From contig NZ_CADIJW010000009.1 of assembly GCF_902859745.1 (NCBI RefSeq), positions 62,001 through 126,000 of the forward strand: DNA of 64,000 nt, given 5' to 3'. The DNA is from Achromobacter dolens. GTDB lineage: Bacteria > Pseudomonadota > Gammaproteobacteria > Burkholderiales > Burkholderiaceae_B. Shown in pieces: positions 14,003 to 42,854 of the stretch (within the stretch, counting starts at the first letter, position 1; each line of letters starts with the position of its first letter). Position numbers and translations under genes: made by a program. The notes under the pieces were generated by a model that saw only the letters and a program-made list of their open reading frames with translations, was not told where the DNA came from and made no database searches.

Positions 14003-15133
14003 ATGTCCTCCACTTCCCGCACTGAACAACTCGTCGCCGGCATCCAGAGCTGGCTGCAATGCGAATCGCCTTCGAACTTCCCCGAAGGCATCGCCGCGAT
14101 GGCCCGCATCATCGCCGACTACGCCGCCGCGGCCGGCCTGACGGTGGAACTGTCGTCGCTCGGCCCCGCCACCGGCCCGCTGCTGTACGCCACCAACCGC
14201 GCCGCTGGCGACACCCGCCCCGGCATCCTGATCCTGGCGCACATGGACACGGTGCACCCGGTCGGCACGCTGCTGGAGAACCCGGTGCGCATCGAGGGCG
14301 ACCGCCTCTACGGCCCCGGCAGCTACGACATGAAGGCCGGCATCTACCTGGCGCTGACGGCGCTGGCCAGCGTGGCCCGCCCGGGCGCGACGCAACTGCC
14401 GGTGGATTTCCTGGTGGTGCCCGACGAGGAAACCGGCAGCCATGCCTCGCGCGCGCACATCGAACGCTTCGCCGCCAATGCCAAGTACGCCCTGGTGTGC
14501 GAACCGGCCCGCCCCAACGGCGGCAAGTGCGTGACGGCGCGCAAGGGCACCGGCATGCTGAACCTGAACGTCAAGGGCCGCCCCGCCCACGCCGGCATGC
14601 AGCACGAGAAAGGCCGCAGCGCGATCCGCGAAATGGCGCACCAGGTGCTGGCGCTGGAAGCGATGACGGACTACGAGCGCGGCATCACCGTGAGCGTGGG
14701 CACGATCGCCGGCGGCACCGTCACCAACACCGTGCCGGCGCTGTGCCGCTGCGTGGTGGACTTCCGCGTGCCCGACATGGGCGCGGCCGAAGACGTGCTG
14801 CGCCGTATGCGCGAGCTGTGCGCGGTGGGCCCGGACGTGGAACTGGACATCGACGTGGAACTGAACCGCCCGCCGATGGTGAAGACCGAGGAAGCCGCCG
14901 CGCTGCTGGCGCTGGTGCAAGGCTACGCGGAACGCGCCGGCTTCCTGCTGGAAGACGCGCCGATGACCGGCGGCGGCAGCGACGCCAACTTCACCTCGGC
15001 CATGGGGATTCCGACGCTGGATGGTCTTGGGGCGGATGGGGACGGGGCGCATACGCTGAATGAGTACATCTTGGTTTCTACGTTGGAGCAGCGGTTGAAG
15101 TTCTGGGAGTTGTTGTTGAAGGAACTTGCTTAG
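14003..15133 (+). CDS. M20-family peptidase, glutamate carboxypeptidase (CPG2)-like
   Basis: 376 aa. The di-zinc signature is complete: LAHMDTVHP (His/Asp near residue 80), GPGSYDMKAG (bridging Asp), PDEETGS (catalytic and metal Glu), and a C-terminal DGAHTLNE (His). The TGGGSDANF motif is typical of CPG2-type enzymes that remove C-terminal Glu or act on N-acyl amino acids. No signal peptide is seen. It is last in the operon. From about 15003 to the stop, third codon positions switch from mostly C to mostly G/T, unlike the rest of the gene. A terminator overlaps the stop codon. Confidence 0.88.
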   Translation: MSSTSRTEQLVAGIQSWLQCESPSNFPEGIAAMARIIADYAAAAGLTVELSSLGPATGPLLYATNRAAGDTRPGILILAHMDTVHPVGTLLENPVRIEGDRLYGPGSYDMKAGIYLALTALASVARPGATQLPVDFLVVPDEETGSHASRAHIERFAANAKYALVCEPARPNGGKCVTARKGTGMLNLNVKGRPAHAGMQHEKGRSAIREMAHQVLALEAMTDYERGITVSVGTIAGGTVTNTVPALCRCVVDFRVPDMGAAEDVLRRMRELCAVGPDVELDIDVELNRPPMVKTEEAAALLALVQGYAERAGFLLEDAPMTGGGSDANFTSAMGIPTLDGLGADGDGAHTLNEYILVSTLEQRLKFWELLLKELA

Positions 15134-15144
15134 AGTTCTTTTTG
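15119..15144 (+). terminator. Rho-independent terminator overlapping the stop of the CPG2-like gene
   Basis: Stem AAGGAACT/AGTTCTTT (15119-15126/15134-15141, one G-U) with a 7-nt loop that contains the TAG stop, followed by a run of T. It ends in TTCTTTTTGC, the same string that precedes the second copy of the structured repeat. Confidence 0.6.
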
Positions 15145-15507
15145 CGGCGGGTTGGGTTCTTTAGCCGCGGGTGTCGGGGCAGGCGGAGGATGGCGGGGCT
15201 ACGATTGCGGTCCGGAGCCTTCGCTCCGGCCTGCCCCGTCGTCATCCTCGTCCTCGCCTTCGGCGACTCCTTCGGATTCCCTCGGGCGCATCTACACGCC
15301 CCGCCATCCTCCGCCTGCCCCGACACCCGCTCACGATGAGACTTAGTGACGGGCTCTGGGGCGAATGGGGTGCTTGGCATGCTATTGCCCATCAGGGGTG
15401 GGGAGAGGATCTTGCGGGGCCCGCCTCAAGCCGGCCGCGCGGGCGGCCTTTTGAGGCTTACGCGGCGTCTTGCGTCGTCGCGTTGACGCTGGCGCGCGTG
15501 GATGCGG
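15136..15507. repeat. Bipartite structured repeat, copy 1
   Basis: Module A is a perfect inverted repeat of 33 bp per arm (15167-15199 and 15298-15330) with a 98-nt loop. The loop holds hairpins CCGGAGC/GCTCCGG (15212-15218/15223-15229) and TCGCC/GGCGA (15254-15258/15262-15266). Module B, 93 nt further, is a hairpin with CCTCAA/TTGAGG (15424-15429/15451-15456) around GGCCGC/GCGGCC. A second copy lies at 40755-41118. Loop length differs by 4 nt between copies and reading frames are not kept, so it is not protein-coding. It lies directly behind a gene terminator. Confidence 0.85.
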
Positions 15508-15809
15508 CGCTGTCGAGCACGACTGAGAGATTGCGCGCACCACACTTGTTTGTGGGCGGCGCGGCAGACTCGTGACGCGCAACATGACATCCATCGCGCC
15601 GCCCACCACCGCCCCTCCCCCTGATGCGCGGCCCAAATAGAAAACCCCTCAACACCAGCGCACAGCGCACCCGTCTCGCCTTCAAATGCGCAGACGCCCC
15701 TTGCGGCCGCCTGCCCGAGGGGCGGCCTACGAAGCGCCCCGCCGCCCCCGAATAGAAAGCCCCGCCCCCATCGCCTAGAATATTCCCAAGAGAATCCCAA
15801 AAAAAGCCC
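15508..15809. other. Intergenic region upstream of dapD
   Basis: Composition swings from G-rich to C-rich on the plus strand near 15580. A 13-mer recurs: AATAGAAAACCCC (15636-15648) and AATAGAAAGCCCC (15751-15763). A -10-like TAGAAT (15776-15781) lies 29 bp before the dapD start, without a good -35. No gene is supported. Confidence 0.4.
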
Positions 15810-16790
15810 ATGCAAGAACACCCCCAAAACAGCGCCATCGCCTACGGCCTGGCCACGATCGCCGCCGACGGCACCGTCCTCGATACCTGGTATCCGCGCC
15901 CGTCCCTGACCGACAAGACGCCCGCGGGCGGCACCCGGCACCTCACGCCTGAAGAAGCGCGAGCCGCGCTCGGCGAGCACGTGCCCACCTCGCTGGGGCG
16001 CGACACCCGGCGCAAAGTCGACATCGTCGCCGTGCGCACCGCCATCGCCTCGCTCGACCAGCCGCCCGCCGACGCACACGACGCCTACCTGCGCCTGCAC
16101 CTGCTCAGCCACCGACTCATTCGGCCGCATGGCGCCAACCTCGACGGGTTGTTCAACGTGCTCGCAAATGTGGCCTGGACCTCCGCCGGCCCCTGCGCCG
16201 TCGACCAGGTCGACGCGCTGCGCTGGCAACTGCGCGCCACCGGGCAGATCCTTGAAATCCGCGGCGTCGACAAGATCCCGCGCATGACCGACTACGTCGT
16301 GCCCGCCGGCGTGCGCATCGCCGACACCGCCCGCGTGCGGCTCGGCGCGCACCTGGCCGCCGGCACCACCGTGCTGCACGAAGGCTTCTGCAACTTCAAC
16401 GCCGGCACCCTCGGCGCCTCCATGGTCGAAGGCCGCATCAGCGCCGGCGTCATCGTCGATGACGGCACCGACATCGGCGGCGGCGCTTCCATCATGGGCA
16501 CCATGTCGGGCGGCGGCAAACAGGTCGTGGCGATTGGCAAGCGCTGCCTGCTTGGCGCCAACTCCGGCATCGGCATCTCGCTGGGCGACGACTGCGTGGT
16601 CGAAGCGGGCTGCTACGTCACCGCCGGCACCCGCGTGCTGACGCCGGAAGGCGCGGTGGTCAAGGCGGTGGAGCTGGCCGGCCAGCACGGACTGCTGTTC
16701 CGCCGCAACTCGCAGACCGGCGCGGTCGAAACGCTGGTGCGCACGGCCGCCTGGGGCACCTTGAACCCGGCGCTGCACACCGGGCACTGA
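15810..16790 (+). CDS. dapD: 2,3,4,5-tetrahydropyridine-2,6-dicarboxylate N-succinyltransferase, long-form type
   Basis: 326 aa, longer than the roughly 275-aa DapD usual in proteobacteria and resembling the longer form known from actinobacteria and Pseudomonas. It transfers succinyl from succinyl-CoA to tetrahydrodipicolinate in lysine/diaminopimelate synthesis. The second half shows the left-handed beta-helix hexapeptide pattern (VVPAGVRIADTARVRLGAHL, then GASIMGTMSGGG and LLGANSGIGISLGDDCVVEA). No other lysine genes are nearby, so it may be a second, accessory DapD. The call of the family is firm; the role as sole DapD is uncertain. Confidence 0.82.
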   Translation: MQEHPQNSAIAYGLATIAADGTVLDTWYPRPSLTDKTPAGGTRHLTPEEARAALGEHVPTSLGRDTRRKVDIVAVRTAIASLDQPPADAHDAYLRLHLLSHRLIRPHGANLDGLFNVLANVAWTSAGPCAVDQVDALRWQLRATGQILEIRGVDKIPRMTDYVVPAGVRIADTARVRLGAHLAAGTTVLHEGFCNFNAGTLGASMVEGRISAGVIVDDGTDIGGGASIMGTMSGGGKQVVAIGKRCLLGANSGIGISLGDDCVVEAGCYVTAGTRVLTPEGAVVKAVELAGQHGLLFRRNSQTGAVETLVRTAAWGTLNPALHTGH

Positions 16791-38945: not shown

Positions 38946-40721
38946 ATGGAAAAAACCGATGCTTTCCCCATACTTTACCGCCTCGCGCCCCACGACCCCG
39001 CGGGGCACCGCTACCGGATAACCCTAACCATCCAGGCGCCCTCGCCGGACGGCCAGCGCCTGTCGCTGCCGGCCTGGATTCCGGGCAGCTACCTGATCCG
39101 CGATTTTTCGCGCCAGATCGAGTCGCTGACGGCCCATTGCGGCAATCGCCGCGTGGCTGTCGACAAAATAGACAATCACACCTGGCAGGCCGCGCCCTGC
39201 GACGGCCCGCTGCGGGTCGAGTACACGGTTTACGCCTGGGACCTGTCGGTGCGCGGCGCGCACCTGGACGAAACCCACGGTTTCTTCAACGGCACCAGCG
39301 TGTTCCTGCGCGTGCATGGACAGGACCACCTGCCCTGCCTGGTGGACCTGGCGCCGCCGCGCGGCATCGACGGCTGGAAGGTCTACACCAGCCTGCCCGA
39401 GGCCCGCGGCCACACGGGCGCGGCGCGCCGCCATGGCTTCGGCCTGTACCTGGCGCCGGACTACGACGCGCTGATCGATCATCCCGTTGAAATGGGCACG
39501 CCGCAGGTGGCGAGCTTCACGGCGCATGGCGCCGAGCACGAACTGGTGTTCACGGGCGTGGCGCCCAACCTGGACCTGGCCCGCATCACCGACGACGTAC
39601 GCAGGATCTGCGAAACCCAGATCGCCTTTTTCGAACCGCGCGGCAAGCGCGCGCCCTTCCTGGACAGCAGCGACCGCTATGTCTTCATGACGATGGTGAC
39701 GGGCGACGGCTACGGCGGCCTGGAACACCGCGCCAGCACGGCGTTGATGACGGCGCGCAAGGACCTGCCGGTGCTGGGCCAGCAGGGCCAGGGCGAAGGC
39801 TATCGCGGCTTCCTGGGGCTGGTCAGCCACGAGTATTTCCATACCTGGAACGTCAAGCGCATCAAGCCGCAGGCGTTCGTGCCGTACGACCTGGCACAGC
39901 CGGACCTGACGCGGCTGTTGTGGGTGTTCGAGGGGTTCACGTCCTACTACGACGATCTGCTGCTGCTGCGCTCCAACGTCATCACGCAGAACGATTACCT
40001 GCGCCTACTGGCCAAGACCATCACCAGCGTGGCGCGCACGCCGGGGCGGCACAAGCAGTCGGTGGCGGAAAGTTCGTTCGACGCGTGGACGCGCTATTAC
40101 AAGCAGGACGAGAATTCGCCCAATGCGCTGGTGAGTTATTACACCAAGGGCGCGCTGGTGGCGCTGGGGCTGGATCTGCTGATCCGCCAGGAGTCTGCGG
40201 GCGCGCATTCGCTGGACGATGTGATGCGGCTGTTGTGGCAGCGGTATGGGCGCGATTTCTATCGCGGCAAGGCGCAGGGGTTGGCGGAGGATGGCCTGCC
40301 GGCGCTGATCAAGGAGGCGACCGGGGTGGATGCGCGGCGCTTCATCGCGCGGCATGCCTACGGGACGGCGGATGTGCCGCTGGCGGAGCTGCTGGCCGCT
40401 CAAGGCGTCAAGCTGCAATGGAAAGCCTCGGTCAATATTCCTTCGCTGGATGTGCGCACGCGCAAGCAGGGGGATTCACTGGTGCTGGCGACGGTGCTGG
40501 AGGGCGGCGCGGGACATAAGGGCGGGTTGTCTGCCGGGGATGTGCTGGTGGCGATCGATGGCTTGAAGGTCGAAGGGGCCGCGGGCGTCGAAGTGTTGCT
40601 GGGGCAGTATCGGGTGGGGGATCGCGTGAGCGTGCATGTGTTCAGGCGGGATGAGTTGAGGGTGTTTCAGGTTCGTTTGAATGGGCCTGAGGCGCTGGAT
40701 TGTGTGTTGTCGGTTGGGTGA
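38946..40721 (+). CDS. M61-family glycyl aminopeptidase with C-terminal PDZ domain
   Basis: 591 aa. The zinc-binding [14 protein letters not shown] (HExxH variant, residues about 295-308) and the third ligand Glu near 329 in [13 protein letters not shown] define the M61 family. A PDZ domain occupies residues about 480-580 ([20 protein letters not shown]). There is no signal peptide, so it is probably cytoplasmic. It removes small N-terminal residues such as Gly/Ala. From about 40100 onward the codons drift to G/T-ending third positions, unlike the first two thirds; the same drift appears before repeat copy 1. Confidence 0.9.
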
Positions 40722-40732
40722 GTATTTTTTTG

Positions 40733-40761
40733 AGGGCCTTCTTTATTGGAAGGCTCTTTTT
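40733..40761 (+). terminator. Rho-independent terminator of the M61 peptidase gene
   Basis: Nine-pair stem AGGGCCTTC/GAAGGCTCT (one G-U) with a 7-nt loop, then TTTTT. It ends in TCTTTTTGC, the same string that ends the terminator in front of repeat copy 1. Confidence 0.8.
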
Positions 40762-41118
40762 GCATTGGGGCGGTGGGGTTCTTTAGGCGCGTGTGGCGGG
40801 GCAGGCGGGGGAGGACGGGGCTACGATTGCGGTCCGGAGCCTTCGCTCCGGACTGCCCCTGCGTCAACCTCGTACGCCTTCGGCTCCCTTCGGTTTCCCT
40901 TGGGCGCATCTACACGCCCCGCCCTCCCCCGCCTGCCCCGCCACACGCTCGCGTTGAGACTTAACGGCCGTTGCTGGGGTGGGCTGTTTGCTTGGCGTTT
41001 TTGCCGTCTAGGTGTGGGGTGGGAGGGTCTTGCGGGGCCCGCCGCAAAGCGGCCGCGCGGGCGGCCTTTTGCGGCTTACGTTGTGTCTTGCGATTTGTGA
41101 TGACGCTCTCGCGTGTGC
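40755..41118. repeat. Bipartite structured repeat, copy 2
   Basis: Module A has 33-bp arms at 40789-40821 and 40916-40948 (32 of 33 pairs) with a 94-nt loop. The loop shares TACGATTGCGGTCCGGAGCC at its start and GGGCGCATCTACAC at its end with copy 1. Module B is CCGCAA/TTGCGG (41042-41047/41069-41074) around GGCCGC/GCGGCC. The gap between modules is 93 nt, exactly as in copy 1. Homology runs to about 41118, next to the stop of the convergent Bug receptor gene. No coding potential is kept between copies. Confidence 0.85.
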
Positions 41119-41119
41119 T

Positions 41120-42112
41120 TCAGTTCAACTTCGCGCCGGAGACTTCGACGGCTTGTTTCCAGGTGTCGAGTTCCTTGTTGATGTGGTCGGCGAAGGCGGC
41201 GGGGGTTGAGCCTACGGTTTCGTAGCCGTAGCTGTTTAGCTGGGCCTTCAGGTCGGGGGTGTTGATGGCGGCGGCGATGGCGCTGCTGAGGGTGTCGAGG
41301 ATGGCGGGTGGCGTGTTGGCGGGGGCCAGGATGCCGTACCAGCCGTTGACGACGAAGCCGGGGACGGCTTCGGCGACGGTGGGGACGTTGGGCAGCAAGG
41401 GGGAGCGGTGTTCGCCGGTGACGGCCAGGGCCTTGAGCTTGCCGGACTGGACCTGGGGCAGCGAGGTGGAGATGCTGTCGAACATCAGGGAGACCTCGCC
41501 GCCCAACAGGGCGACGACGGCGGGGCCGCTGCCTTTGTAGGGGACGTGCAGCATGTCGGCGCCGGTGCGGTGCTTGAAGATCTCGGCGGCCAGGTGGCTG
41601 GTGTTGCCGTTGCCGGCGGAGGCGAAGCTGAGCTTGCCGGGATGCTGCCTGGCGTAGGCGATGAGTTCGGGGATGCTGTTGGCGGGGGTGGACAGCGGGG
41701 CCGAGACCAGCATGGGCAGGGTCGCGACCAGCGAGACCGGGGCGAAGTCGCGCCGGGTGTCGTAGGGCAGCGAGGGGTAGAGGCTGGGATTGATGGCGTG
41801 GGCGGCCAGGACCATCAGCAGGGTGTAGCCGTCCGGTTTGGCACGCGCCAGTTGCGAAGAGGCGATGGCGCCGCCGGCGCCCGGCTTGTACTCCAGCACC
41901 ACGGGCTGGTTCCACTTCTTCTGCAAGGCCGCGCCGAGCGGGCGGGCCAGCATGTCGGCGCTGCCGCCGGGCGGGTACGGGATCAGCAGCGTAATCGGCT
42001 TGTCGGGATAGGCGCCGGCGGGTGCTGCCGCCGCGGGCTGTGCGCGGACGGTGGTCGCCGCGGCAAACAACAGGCTGGCGGTTGCCAGGACGGCTAGGAC
42101 GGGACGGTGCAT
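41120..42112 (-). CDS. Bug-family tripartite tricarboxylate transporter substrate-binding protein
   Basis: 330 aa from ATG 42112 (MHRPVLAVLATASLLFAAAT), a typical signal peptide cut near AQPAAA. The mature part has YPDKPITLLIPYPPGGSAD, LEYKPGAGGAIASSQLARAK and PYKGSGPAVVALLGGEV, the hallmarks of Bug/TctC receptors. It binds carboxylated solutes in the periplasm. No TctA/TctB membrane genes are in the window, as is common for Bug proteins in this bacterial family. It is downstream of the CoA-transferase pair on the same strand. The 3' half is G/T-rich on the plus strand, like the adjacent repeat. Confidence 0.92.
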   Translation of the reverse strand: MHRPVLAVLATASLLFAAATTVRAQPAAAAPAGAYPDKPITLLIPYPPGGSADMLARPLGAALQKKWNQPVVLEYKPGAGGAIASSQLARAKPDGYTLLMVLAAHAINPSLYPSLPYDTRRDFAPVSLVATLPMLVSAPLSTPANSIPELIAYARQHPGKLSFASAGNGNTSHLAAEIFKHRTGADMLHVPYKGSGPAVVALLGGEVSLMFDSISTSLPQVQSGKLKALAVTGEHRSPLLPNVPTVAEAVPGFVVNGWYGILAPANTPPAILDTLSSAIAAAINTPDLKAQLNSYGYETVGSTPAAFADHINKELDTWKQAVEVSGAKLN

Positions 42113-42149
42113 GGCGGACTCCGGGATGGCTCGGACAGGGTGGGTTGCC

Positions 42150-42854
42150 TCAGCCCCTGACGTAGCGCGGCGCGCCGGCGGCATCGAGCGCGATGACCGA
42201 TGGCGTGTCGGTAAACCGCAAGGGCGCTTCGGTGGCGGCCTGCAGATCGTCGGCGCTGACGCCCCGCAGCATGGCGTGCACGCGCAGGCCGTCGGGCGTA
42301 ACGTCGATCACGGCCAGGTCGGTATAGATACGTGTGACGACGCGCGCGCCGGTCAGTGGGTAGCGGCATTGGCGCAGGATCTTGGGCGCGCCGTCGCGGC
42401 CGCGGTGTTCCATCATGGCCAGCACCTGGCGCGCGCCGACCGCCAGGTCCATGGCGCCGCCGACGGCCGGAATGGCGTCGGCGGCGTCGGTCTTCCAGTT
42501 GGCCAGGTCGCCGCGTTCCGAGACCTGGAAGGCGCCGAGCACGGCGTAGTCGAGATGGCCGCCGCGCATCATGGCGAACGACACGGTGTGTTCGGTGATG
42601 GAGGCGCCCGGCAGCAGCGTGATGGGCTGGCGGCTGGCGTTGATGAGGTCCGGATCGATGGCGTCTCCAGCCGCGGCCGGCCCCATGCCGGTGATGCCGT
42701 TCTCGCTATGCAAGAGGATGTCCTTGTCGGGCGGCAGGTAGTCGCCCACCAGGGTCGGCATGCCAATGCCCAGGTTGACGACCGAGCCGTCGGGGATATC
42801 GCCGGCCAGCAGTTGCGCGACCTGCTGGCGGGTCATGGGGGTGATCGTCGGCAT
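42150..42854 (-). CDS. 3-oxoacid CoA-transferase subunit B
   Basis: 234 aa. The catalytic glutamate is Glu51 in LLHSENGITGMGP, the SENG motif of the beta subunit. The N-terminal NLGIGMPTLVGDYLP segment is conserved. With subunit A it moves CoA from succinyl-CoA (or another donor) to a 3-oxoacid. The start lies 1 bp from the subunit A stop, implying coupled translation. Substrate could be acetoacetate, 3-oxoadipate or another acid; not decidable here. Confidence 0.92.
   Translation of the reverse strand: MPTITPMTRQQVAQLLAGDIPDGSVVNLGIGMPTLVGDYLPPDKDILLHSENGITGMGPAAAGDAIDPDLINASRQPITLLPGASITEHTVSFAMMRGGHLDYAVLGAFQVSERGDLANWKTDAADAIPAVGGAMDLAVGARQVLAMMEHRGRDGAPKILRQCRYPLTGARVVTRIYTDLAVIDVTPDGLRVHAMLRGVSADDLQAATEAPLRFTDTPSVIALDAAGAPRYVRG

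Follow-up and report, generated by a model that had tools for sequence, protein, structure and literature searches.

A dispersed two-stem element of Achromobacter with private, nearly perfectly paired arms: copies, relatives and candidate explanations

The window analysed here, a stretch of 64,000 nucleotides of Achromobacter dolens (contig C9:62001-126000 of the 6.29-Mb genome G000), contains two copies of a dispersed element of about 340 nt, in which the stem of a module A closes a branched loop of about 95 nt and is followed by a linker and the stem of a module B of about 15 bp. The arms of module A combine near-perfect pairing with a largely free sequence, and the family is large and apparently undescribed. 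The origin and upkeep of long perfect stems is an open question in RNA evolution; on the basis of rRNA and microRNA data, passages of PMC8794818 propose template switching as an answer. Here a single genus offers around a hundred such stems in each genome, and for these stems orthologs, intermediates, loop swaps and inversions are available together with a known phylogeny, which makes both rate and mechanism directly measurable. The element is also a warning about covariation, which is usually read as proof of a selected RNA and can arise partly by DNA copying.

Layout and number of copies

On the plus strand the element reads outer box, arm, loop, arm, linker, module B and a short terminal hairpin (Table 1). 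The outer box is GGGTTCTTNAGNC, replaced by CTTCGTAGG in a second subfamily, and many Bordetella-group copies have a GGTTCTTNTGGC-like box. Among the 138 distinct modules, 106 have module A arms of 31-34 nt. The loop they enclose is a branched core made up of helices P2 and P3 together with a P4 hairpin that varies. Distinct module B stems, 63 of which passed a filter that prefers long Watson-Crick stems, have 15 bp in 46 cases and 16 bp in 12; their inner GGCCGC..GCGGCC is mostly conserved and their outer part variable. A coding loop was discarded as a possibility, given that the loop comes in anchor-to-anchor lengths of 87 and 91 nt, which would break a reading frame. Inspection by eye of the Bordetella-group copies showed that in many of them the GGTTCTT box beside module A occurs a second time in the linker, ahead of module B, which gives the impression of an element composed of two related units. 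A similar C-rich extra loop segment is present in the own-genome copies L035 (2094-2271) and L046 (2051-2230), as well as in the G027 ortholog of L035.

Table 1. Positions of the two copies and their neighbourhood in the window (for the loop of copy 1 the minus strand is given, being the strand favoured by wobble asymmetry; a point stands for no assigned strand)
Feature	Position	Strand	Remarks
Copy 1, outer box GGGTTCTTTAGCC	15154..15166	+	adjoins left arm; recurs in many copies
Copy 1, module A left arm, 33 nt	15167..15199	.	33/33 complementary to 15298-15330
Copy 1, module A loop, 98 nt	15200..15297	-	branched core (P2, P3, P4 hairpins)
Copy 1, module A right arm, 33 nt	15298..15330	.	
Copy 1, linker	15331..15422	.	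from sequence and alignment
Copy 1, module B hairpin	15423..15457	.	outer stem varies between copies, inner GGCCGC..GCGGCC mostly conserved
Copy 1, module C, short terminal hairpin GCGTC..GACGC	15472..15489	.	by eye
Relic arm of a second, oppositely oriented element	15709..15734	-	from ortholog alignment; element whole in G002 and G015
Copy 2, outer box GGGGTTCTTTAGGC	40775..40788	+	
Copy 2, module A left arm, 33 nt	40789..40821	.	32/33 complementary to right arm
Copy 2, module A loop, 94 nt	40822..40915	-	
Copy 2, module A right arm, 33 nt	40916..40948	.	
Copy 2, linker	40949..41040	.	
Copy 2, module B hairpin	41041..41075	.	
Gene preceding copy 1, M20 peptidase family	14003..15133	+	
Gene preceding copy 2, M61 peptidase with PDZ	38946..40721	+	
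Convergent gene right after copy 2, TctC receptor family	41120..42184	-	

The measurements of a preliminary description of the window were reproduced. Module A pairs at 33/33 positions around 98 nt in copy 1 and at 32/33 around 94 nt in copy 2, the distance from right arm to module B is exactly 93 nt in both (CCTCAA at 15424, CCGCAA at 41042), and of the five positions at which the left arms differ four are answered on the right, the fifth being an A·C mismatch in copy 2. The module A hairpin of copy 1 has a folding z of -12.4 (minus strand). A scan for inverted repeats that was blind to the family (arm length 24 bp or more, no more than 2 mismatches, spacer of 20-250 nt) was run over three contigs, 909,272 bp or 14.5% of the own genome, and found 14, all 14 of them this element, against 0 in an order-2 Markov control consisting of one sequence of equal length. 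Because of this z value and the 14 inverted repeats against 0, the hairpins are not a product of chance. A whole-element profile gave 17 matches in the same 909,272 bp, therefore a few copies are without long arms. Extrapolation from these 909 kb leads to about 97 copies with intact arms per genome.

The two copies initially noticed are thus accompanied by dozens of others: BLAST with copy 1 in its own genome gave at least 59 match pieces, with fragments and arm-to-arm cross-matches counted and the best 40 of 130 candidates scored. Two very similar copies, L029 (2046-2385 on C39) and L030 (2009-2348 on C85), lie near contig ends and share flanks beyond the element, which suggests a larger repeat that broke the assembly.

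The earlier remark that no known family could be recognised held up, as the window had 0 Rfam matches at gathering score. At E up to 5, five loci gave 8 Rfam matches, all under gathering score and mostly to microRNA families, and a known RNA family was rejected on these two results. Spread by phages or plasmids was rejected likewise: copy 1 had no match at E 1e-5 in plasmid and phage collections, a search in which distant forms could be missed, and one exact-type pattern had no match in viral contigs. Among the papers listed by literature searches on Achromobacter and Bordetella repeats, sRNAs and MITEs, none described this element, and none of the 3 mentions of 'repeat' in the B. petrii genome paper describes it.

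Pairing of the arms and the favoured strand

Of the 44 own-genome copies 39 were used, two being dropped for want of any anchor, two for want of the second anchor and one as armless. Their arm pairs are Watson-Crick in 1263 of 1280 cases, yet the arms differ greatly between copies. Likewise, among 68 modules less than 80% alike, 2094 of 2143 pairs (97.7%) are Watson-Crick at a median arm identity of 47%.

Covariation, which the preliminary description proposed to test statistically, was compared with shuffles, which leave kinship in place, and with controls in which partners were slid, which retain it; the structures were those of RNAalifold on the same alignments, which favours them, and under these terms the signal lies far above both controls. 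In 37 of the 39 own-genome copies (two with loop insertions excluded) there are 218 double-change cells, where shuffling gives 73.7 on average, and the paired cells amount to 95.3% against 35-46% with partners slid by 1-3 columns. For loop cores, 62 of 68 thinned cores (arms less than 80% alike) were used, all from the own genus and genus g39, and gave 117 double-change cells against 30.8 in shuffles, with 99.2% of cells paired against 23-40% when slid. Neither the number of pairs showing a double change (8 against 6.9) nor that of further pair types (12 against 12.5) was in excess over shuffles in these 62 cores.

Mismatches are distributed unequally between strands. On the plus strand the 138 distinct modules have 81 A·C against 8 G·T, and the thinned set 33 against 5 (p = 4e-6 for equality). 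An A·C on the plus strand is a G·U on the minus strand, so that the folded RNA under selection, if any, would be the minus strand, as this asymmetry suggests; a strand bias of mutation could contribute to it. The fold that the preliminary description saw in both copies stands, with the correction that pairing alone fixes no strand; the mismatch types favour minus, opposite to the direction in which that description read the element. In module B the wobbles are not biased to one strand (15 G·T, 17 A·C), and the folding energy of the core has no clear strand preference (minus better in 40 of 68). In the thinned set G and T are abundant in the left arms (G 1236, C 612, T 198, A 97). In the 138 modules C·A mismatches (58) outnumber A·C (23), though G-C pairs are twice as common as C-G.

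Relatives, orthologous sites and gene context

All 37 sampled genomes of the genus, the own genome included, matched by BLAST, G003 with only one weak match; of 24 genomes of the order that belong to other families, 0 matched. The core of module A was also made into a covariance model, R1, which matched 15 of the 151 genomes examined in the family. The genomes matched belong to 5 of 43 genera; G003 of the own genus was missed. One of these genera, g48, is represented by a single weak match in G123 (E 6e-4) with a best pairing of 11/12 and no matching arms, which was rejected as a family member and is probably due to chance. Genus g39, taken as the Bordetella group, matched in 7 of 9 genomes, and a one-pattern search showed the element in Bordetella petrii, Bordetella genomosp. 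2 and genomosp. 7. In g39 and g29 a hairpin resembling module B follows 29 of 32 modules. In a 250-genome sample of the order R1, which was built from own-genus copies and may overlook distant ones, matched only 2 genomes, both of the own genus. With BLAST and the covariance model suggested beforehand taken together, the similarity reaches throughout the genus and into three or more further genera of the family, and so is not confined to one duplication.

Genome G165, with 36 matches, carries composites of two elements joined tail-to-tail, [A-B]...[B'-A'], of about 780-930 bp. They stand at unrelated sites with unrelated flanks and are 90-96% identical within each of two subtypes, which points to recent dispersal. 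Their self-inverted stretches measure 279-299 bp at 66-79% identity in 10 loci and 90 bp in an eleventh. A target-site duplication was not evident by eye in these composites, for which there was no matched empty site to compare, and the open reading frames listed for one pair of about 2.2 kb were all short and none obviously a transposase. At L281 (700-2320 on C21 of G165) opposite elements about 2 kb apart enclose about 1.6 kb without an obvious gene among the ORFs listed. Tail-to-tail pairs make up 5 of 40 contexts in the own genome, one locus being counted twice, and no other pair arrangement occurs there. The Y1 transposase profile PF01797 had 0 matches in G000 (114 contigs, 100% complete); its control was positive in 5 of 14.

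An ortholog survey gave loci at each of two sites in 30 of 43 genomes of the genus. At the site of the M20 peptidase gene the element starts -6 to +24 nt from the gene end in 14 of 30, and at that of the M61 peptidase gene at least part of module A is present in 15 of 30, a remnant without module A in 3, a weak match at a contig end in 1 and none in 11. Two further sites had a match in all 9 of 9 genomes (own and 8 others), partial in one at S3, and at site S4 four matches are shortened (G026, G002, G064, G024). Many sites are old, and because many own-genus sites are so, two of them matched in 9/9 genomes, we confine the claim of recent dispersal to G165.

Orthologous arms differ yet stay nearly paired, for instance in G066, G012 and G014. 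Twenty-four ortholog pairs were compared, three of which lacked a module and three of which were shifted by an indel and were left uncounted; the 18 unshifted comparisons, which are not independent, contain 28 compensated against 17 one-sided arm changes. Individual sites show several kinds of change in place. At the 57k locus G015 keeps the arms of G000 around another loop type, whereas at S4 G002 has three mismatches in the outer 8 nt of otherwise matching arms and so represents a one-arm intermediate. In G064 the 94-nt spacer at S4 is exactly inverted between intact arms, and own-genome copy L039 is a second spacer inversion. The set of 138 modules, which predates the G064 case, has 121 in normal orientation, 1 inverted and 16 with no orientation assigned. 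Deletions occurred at the site of copy 2, where G026 has no module A and G015 lacks most of it, and beside copy 1 a second element has been reduced to the relic at 15709-15734.

Gene context was taken from a GC3-based caller, with both members of paired copies included, and both neighbours were available for 37 of 42 copies. These lie between convergent genes in 23 cases, co-directional genes in 12 and divergent genes in 2, and in 32 of the 37 the gene beyond module B is on the element's minus strand.

Proposed copying and selection, and the rival explanations

The explanation we prefer overall, with confidence a little above even, is a non-autonomous, MITE-like element of two hairpins in which arm-templated copying would act together with selection on the hairpin. 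The element lies mostly between convergent genes, single or as tail-to-tail pairs. During DNA synthesis the hairpin would form and one arm would template the other, a template switching that amounts to quasipalindrome correction, and any alteration of one arm, whether it came from mutation or through conversion by a sister copy, would then be copied into the other arm or erased. Selection would keep the nearly fixed stem length and the conserved branched loop, probably because a putative minus-strand transcript folds.

According to passages of PMC8604942 and PMC8794818, homogenised arms together with an inverted spacer are the footprint left by a polymerase that switches templates between inverted repeats; in the data of PMC8794818, loop inversion accompanied by compensatory changes is given as extremely rare. 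The present element resembles those template-switch hairpins in its compensated multi-base changes and its loop inversion, both features being found here as homogenised arms and as spacers inverted between intact arms (G064 at S4, L039). It differs from the cases in these passages, which concern rRNA, microRNA and yeast coding DNA, in being a dispersed bacterial repeat with stems of mostly 31-34 bp and spacers of about 95 nt. Selection for, or homogenisation of, a fold had been the initial interpretation, and both halves of it are supported: homogenisation because of the spacer inversion, the loop swaps and the one-arm intermediate, structural constraint because the loop core is conserved and the range of stem lengths narrow. 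We retain copying and selection together because switching alone leaves unexplained the lack of other such repeats in 909 kb, the narrow stem lengths and the loop core common to different genera.

For the DNA half the main rival is RecA recombination between arms or copies, which when acting between arms would give the same inversions. That recombination or gene conversion of this type, between copies and between arms, took the place of template switching within the hairpin is doubtful though to be taken seriously: loops have been exchanged between copies with arms unchanged, and L032 and L035 of the own genome share arms and loop type, but conversion between copies does not by itself match the two arms, and with the 39 own-genome arms being for the most part different from one another it is often implausible that a sister copy donated both. 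We hold as just as doubtful a purely selfish element, the hairpins of which would be single-stranded DNA substrates of a putative transposase and would have no RNA function for the host. The inverted-repeat composites of G165, nearly identical at sites that are unrelated, agree with it, nearly strict Watson-Crick pairing suits DNA, and the preference for convergent intergenic positions fits promoter avoidance; the absence of a PF01797 match from the own genome, the strand asymmetry of wobbles in module A and the core retained by old orthologous copies all argue against it. An invertible switch worked by a site-specific recombinase on the arms would account for two precise spacer inversions, however only 1 of 122 oriented modules in the set of 138 is inverted and the arms have little common sequence for a recombinase to recognise, making this very improbable.

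As regards the RNA half, a classical structured RNA, in which selection on the transcript would maintain pairing solely through ordinary compensatory point mutations, is unlikely. The loop core is conserved and covaries in the own genus and g39, mismatches are biased to minus-strand G-U (33 against 5, thinned) and one-sided intermediates exist, yet G-U makes up only about 1.5% of pairs on the favoured strand, and neither precise spacer inversions nor clustered multi-base compensated changes are expected from point mutation and selection alone. Arms of near-constant length with a mostly private sequence in each copy could also be guides or captured targets of a defence or silencing RNA, a notion we find barely credible, as exact matches of the 39 arms elsewhere in 909 kb (14.5% of the genome) are not above those of shuffled arms. 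More tentatively than the combined explanation preferred above, we consider possible a minus-strand family of two-stem RNAs in which selection would act only on the branched loop and on helix length (about 33 bp, or three A-form turns, in one stem and 15 bp in the other) and would leave stem sequence free, so that each genome would carry about 100 copies with private, perfectly paired stems matched by DNA template switching. If true, such a family would serve as a natural assay for mutations templated by hairpins, and a protein that binds double-stranded RNA might use it as a length-ruler.

Among known repeats, ERIC and NEMIS/Correia are intergenic hairpin repeats of roughly 100-160 nt with a stem sequence common to their copies, whereas the stem sequence of the present element is largely free and its length and pairing are kept. 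MITEs are similar in being non-autonomous, in their inverted-repeat ends and in recent multi-copy dispersal (G165), and differ in that each composite end here holds its own internal hairpins and that in G165 neither a target-site duplication nor a partner transposase was seen. The likeness to REPs, BIMEs and REPINs, as these are commonly characterised, lies in being dispersed, intergenic, palindromic, non-autonomous and often paired in opposite orientation. REPs are however 20-40 bp according to a passage of PMC3733652, against arms mostly of 31-34 nt around about 95 nt plus a second stem in this element, and in contrast to RAYT-associated REPs the own genome has no match to a RAYT-type Y1 transposase; a RAYT-driven REP was rejected on the lack of a PF01797 match there and of the short-palindrome feature. 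Bor repeats are Bordetella stem-loop families, of which Bor-1 and Bor-2 are listed as intergenic in parts of PMC1590033 and PMC2267715, the latter giving for B. bronchiseptica 117 nt and 196(92) members for Bor-1, and 167 nt and 17(6) members for Bor-2. The length of Bor-2 is close to the approximately 165 nt of module A, and by description, as opposed to sequence, Bor-1 and Bor-2 could be relatives of the element.

A host role is the weakest step of the account: position and structure point to a putative transcript-end or insulating hairpin between convergent genes. NEMIS are cut by RNase III, and by analogy the same is possibly true for this element. An intrinsic terminator or sigma-70 promoter was rejected, as the G165 composite L290 has no promoter-like site and no T-run terminator, and positions 15080-15830 of the window have no GC stem plus T run and one promoter-like site, at 15753-15781 (+), outside the element. 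The gene that precedes copy 2 has a hairpin plus T run of its own behind it (40735-40759), just upstream of the element, and a similar hairpin occurs at the copy 2 site of G064, from which the element is absent.
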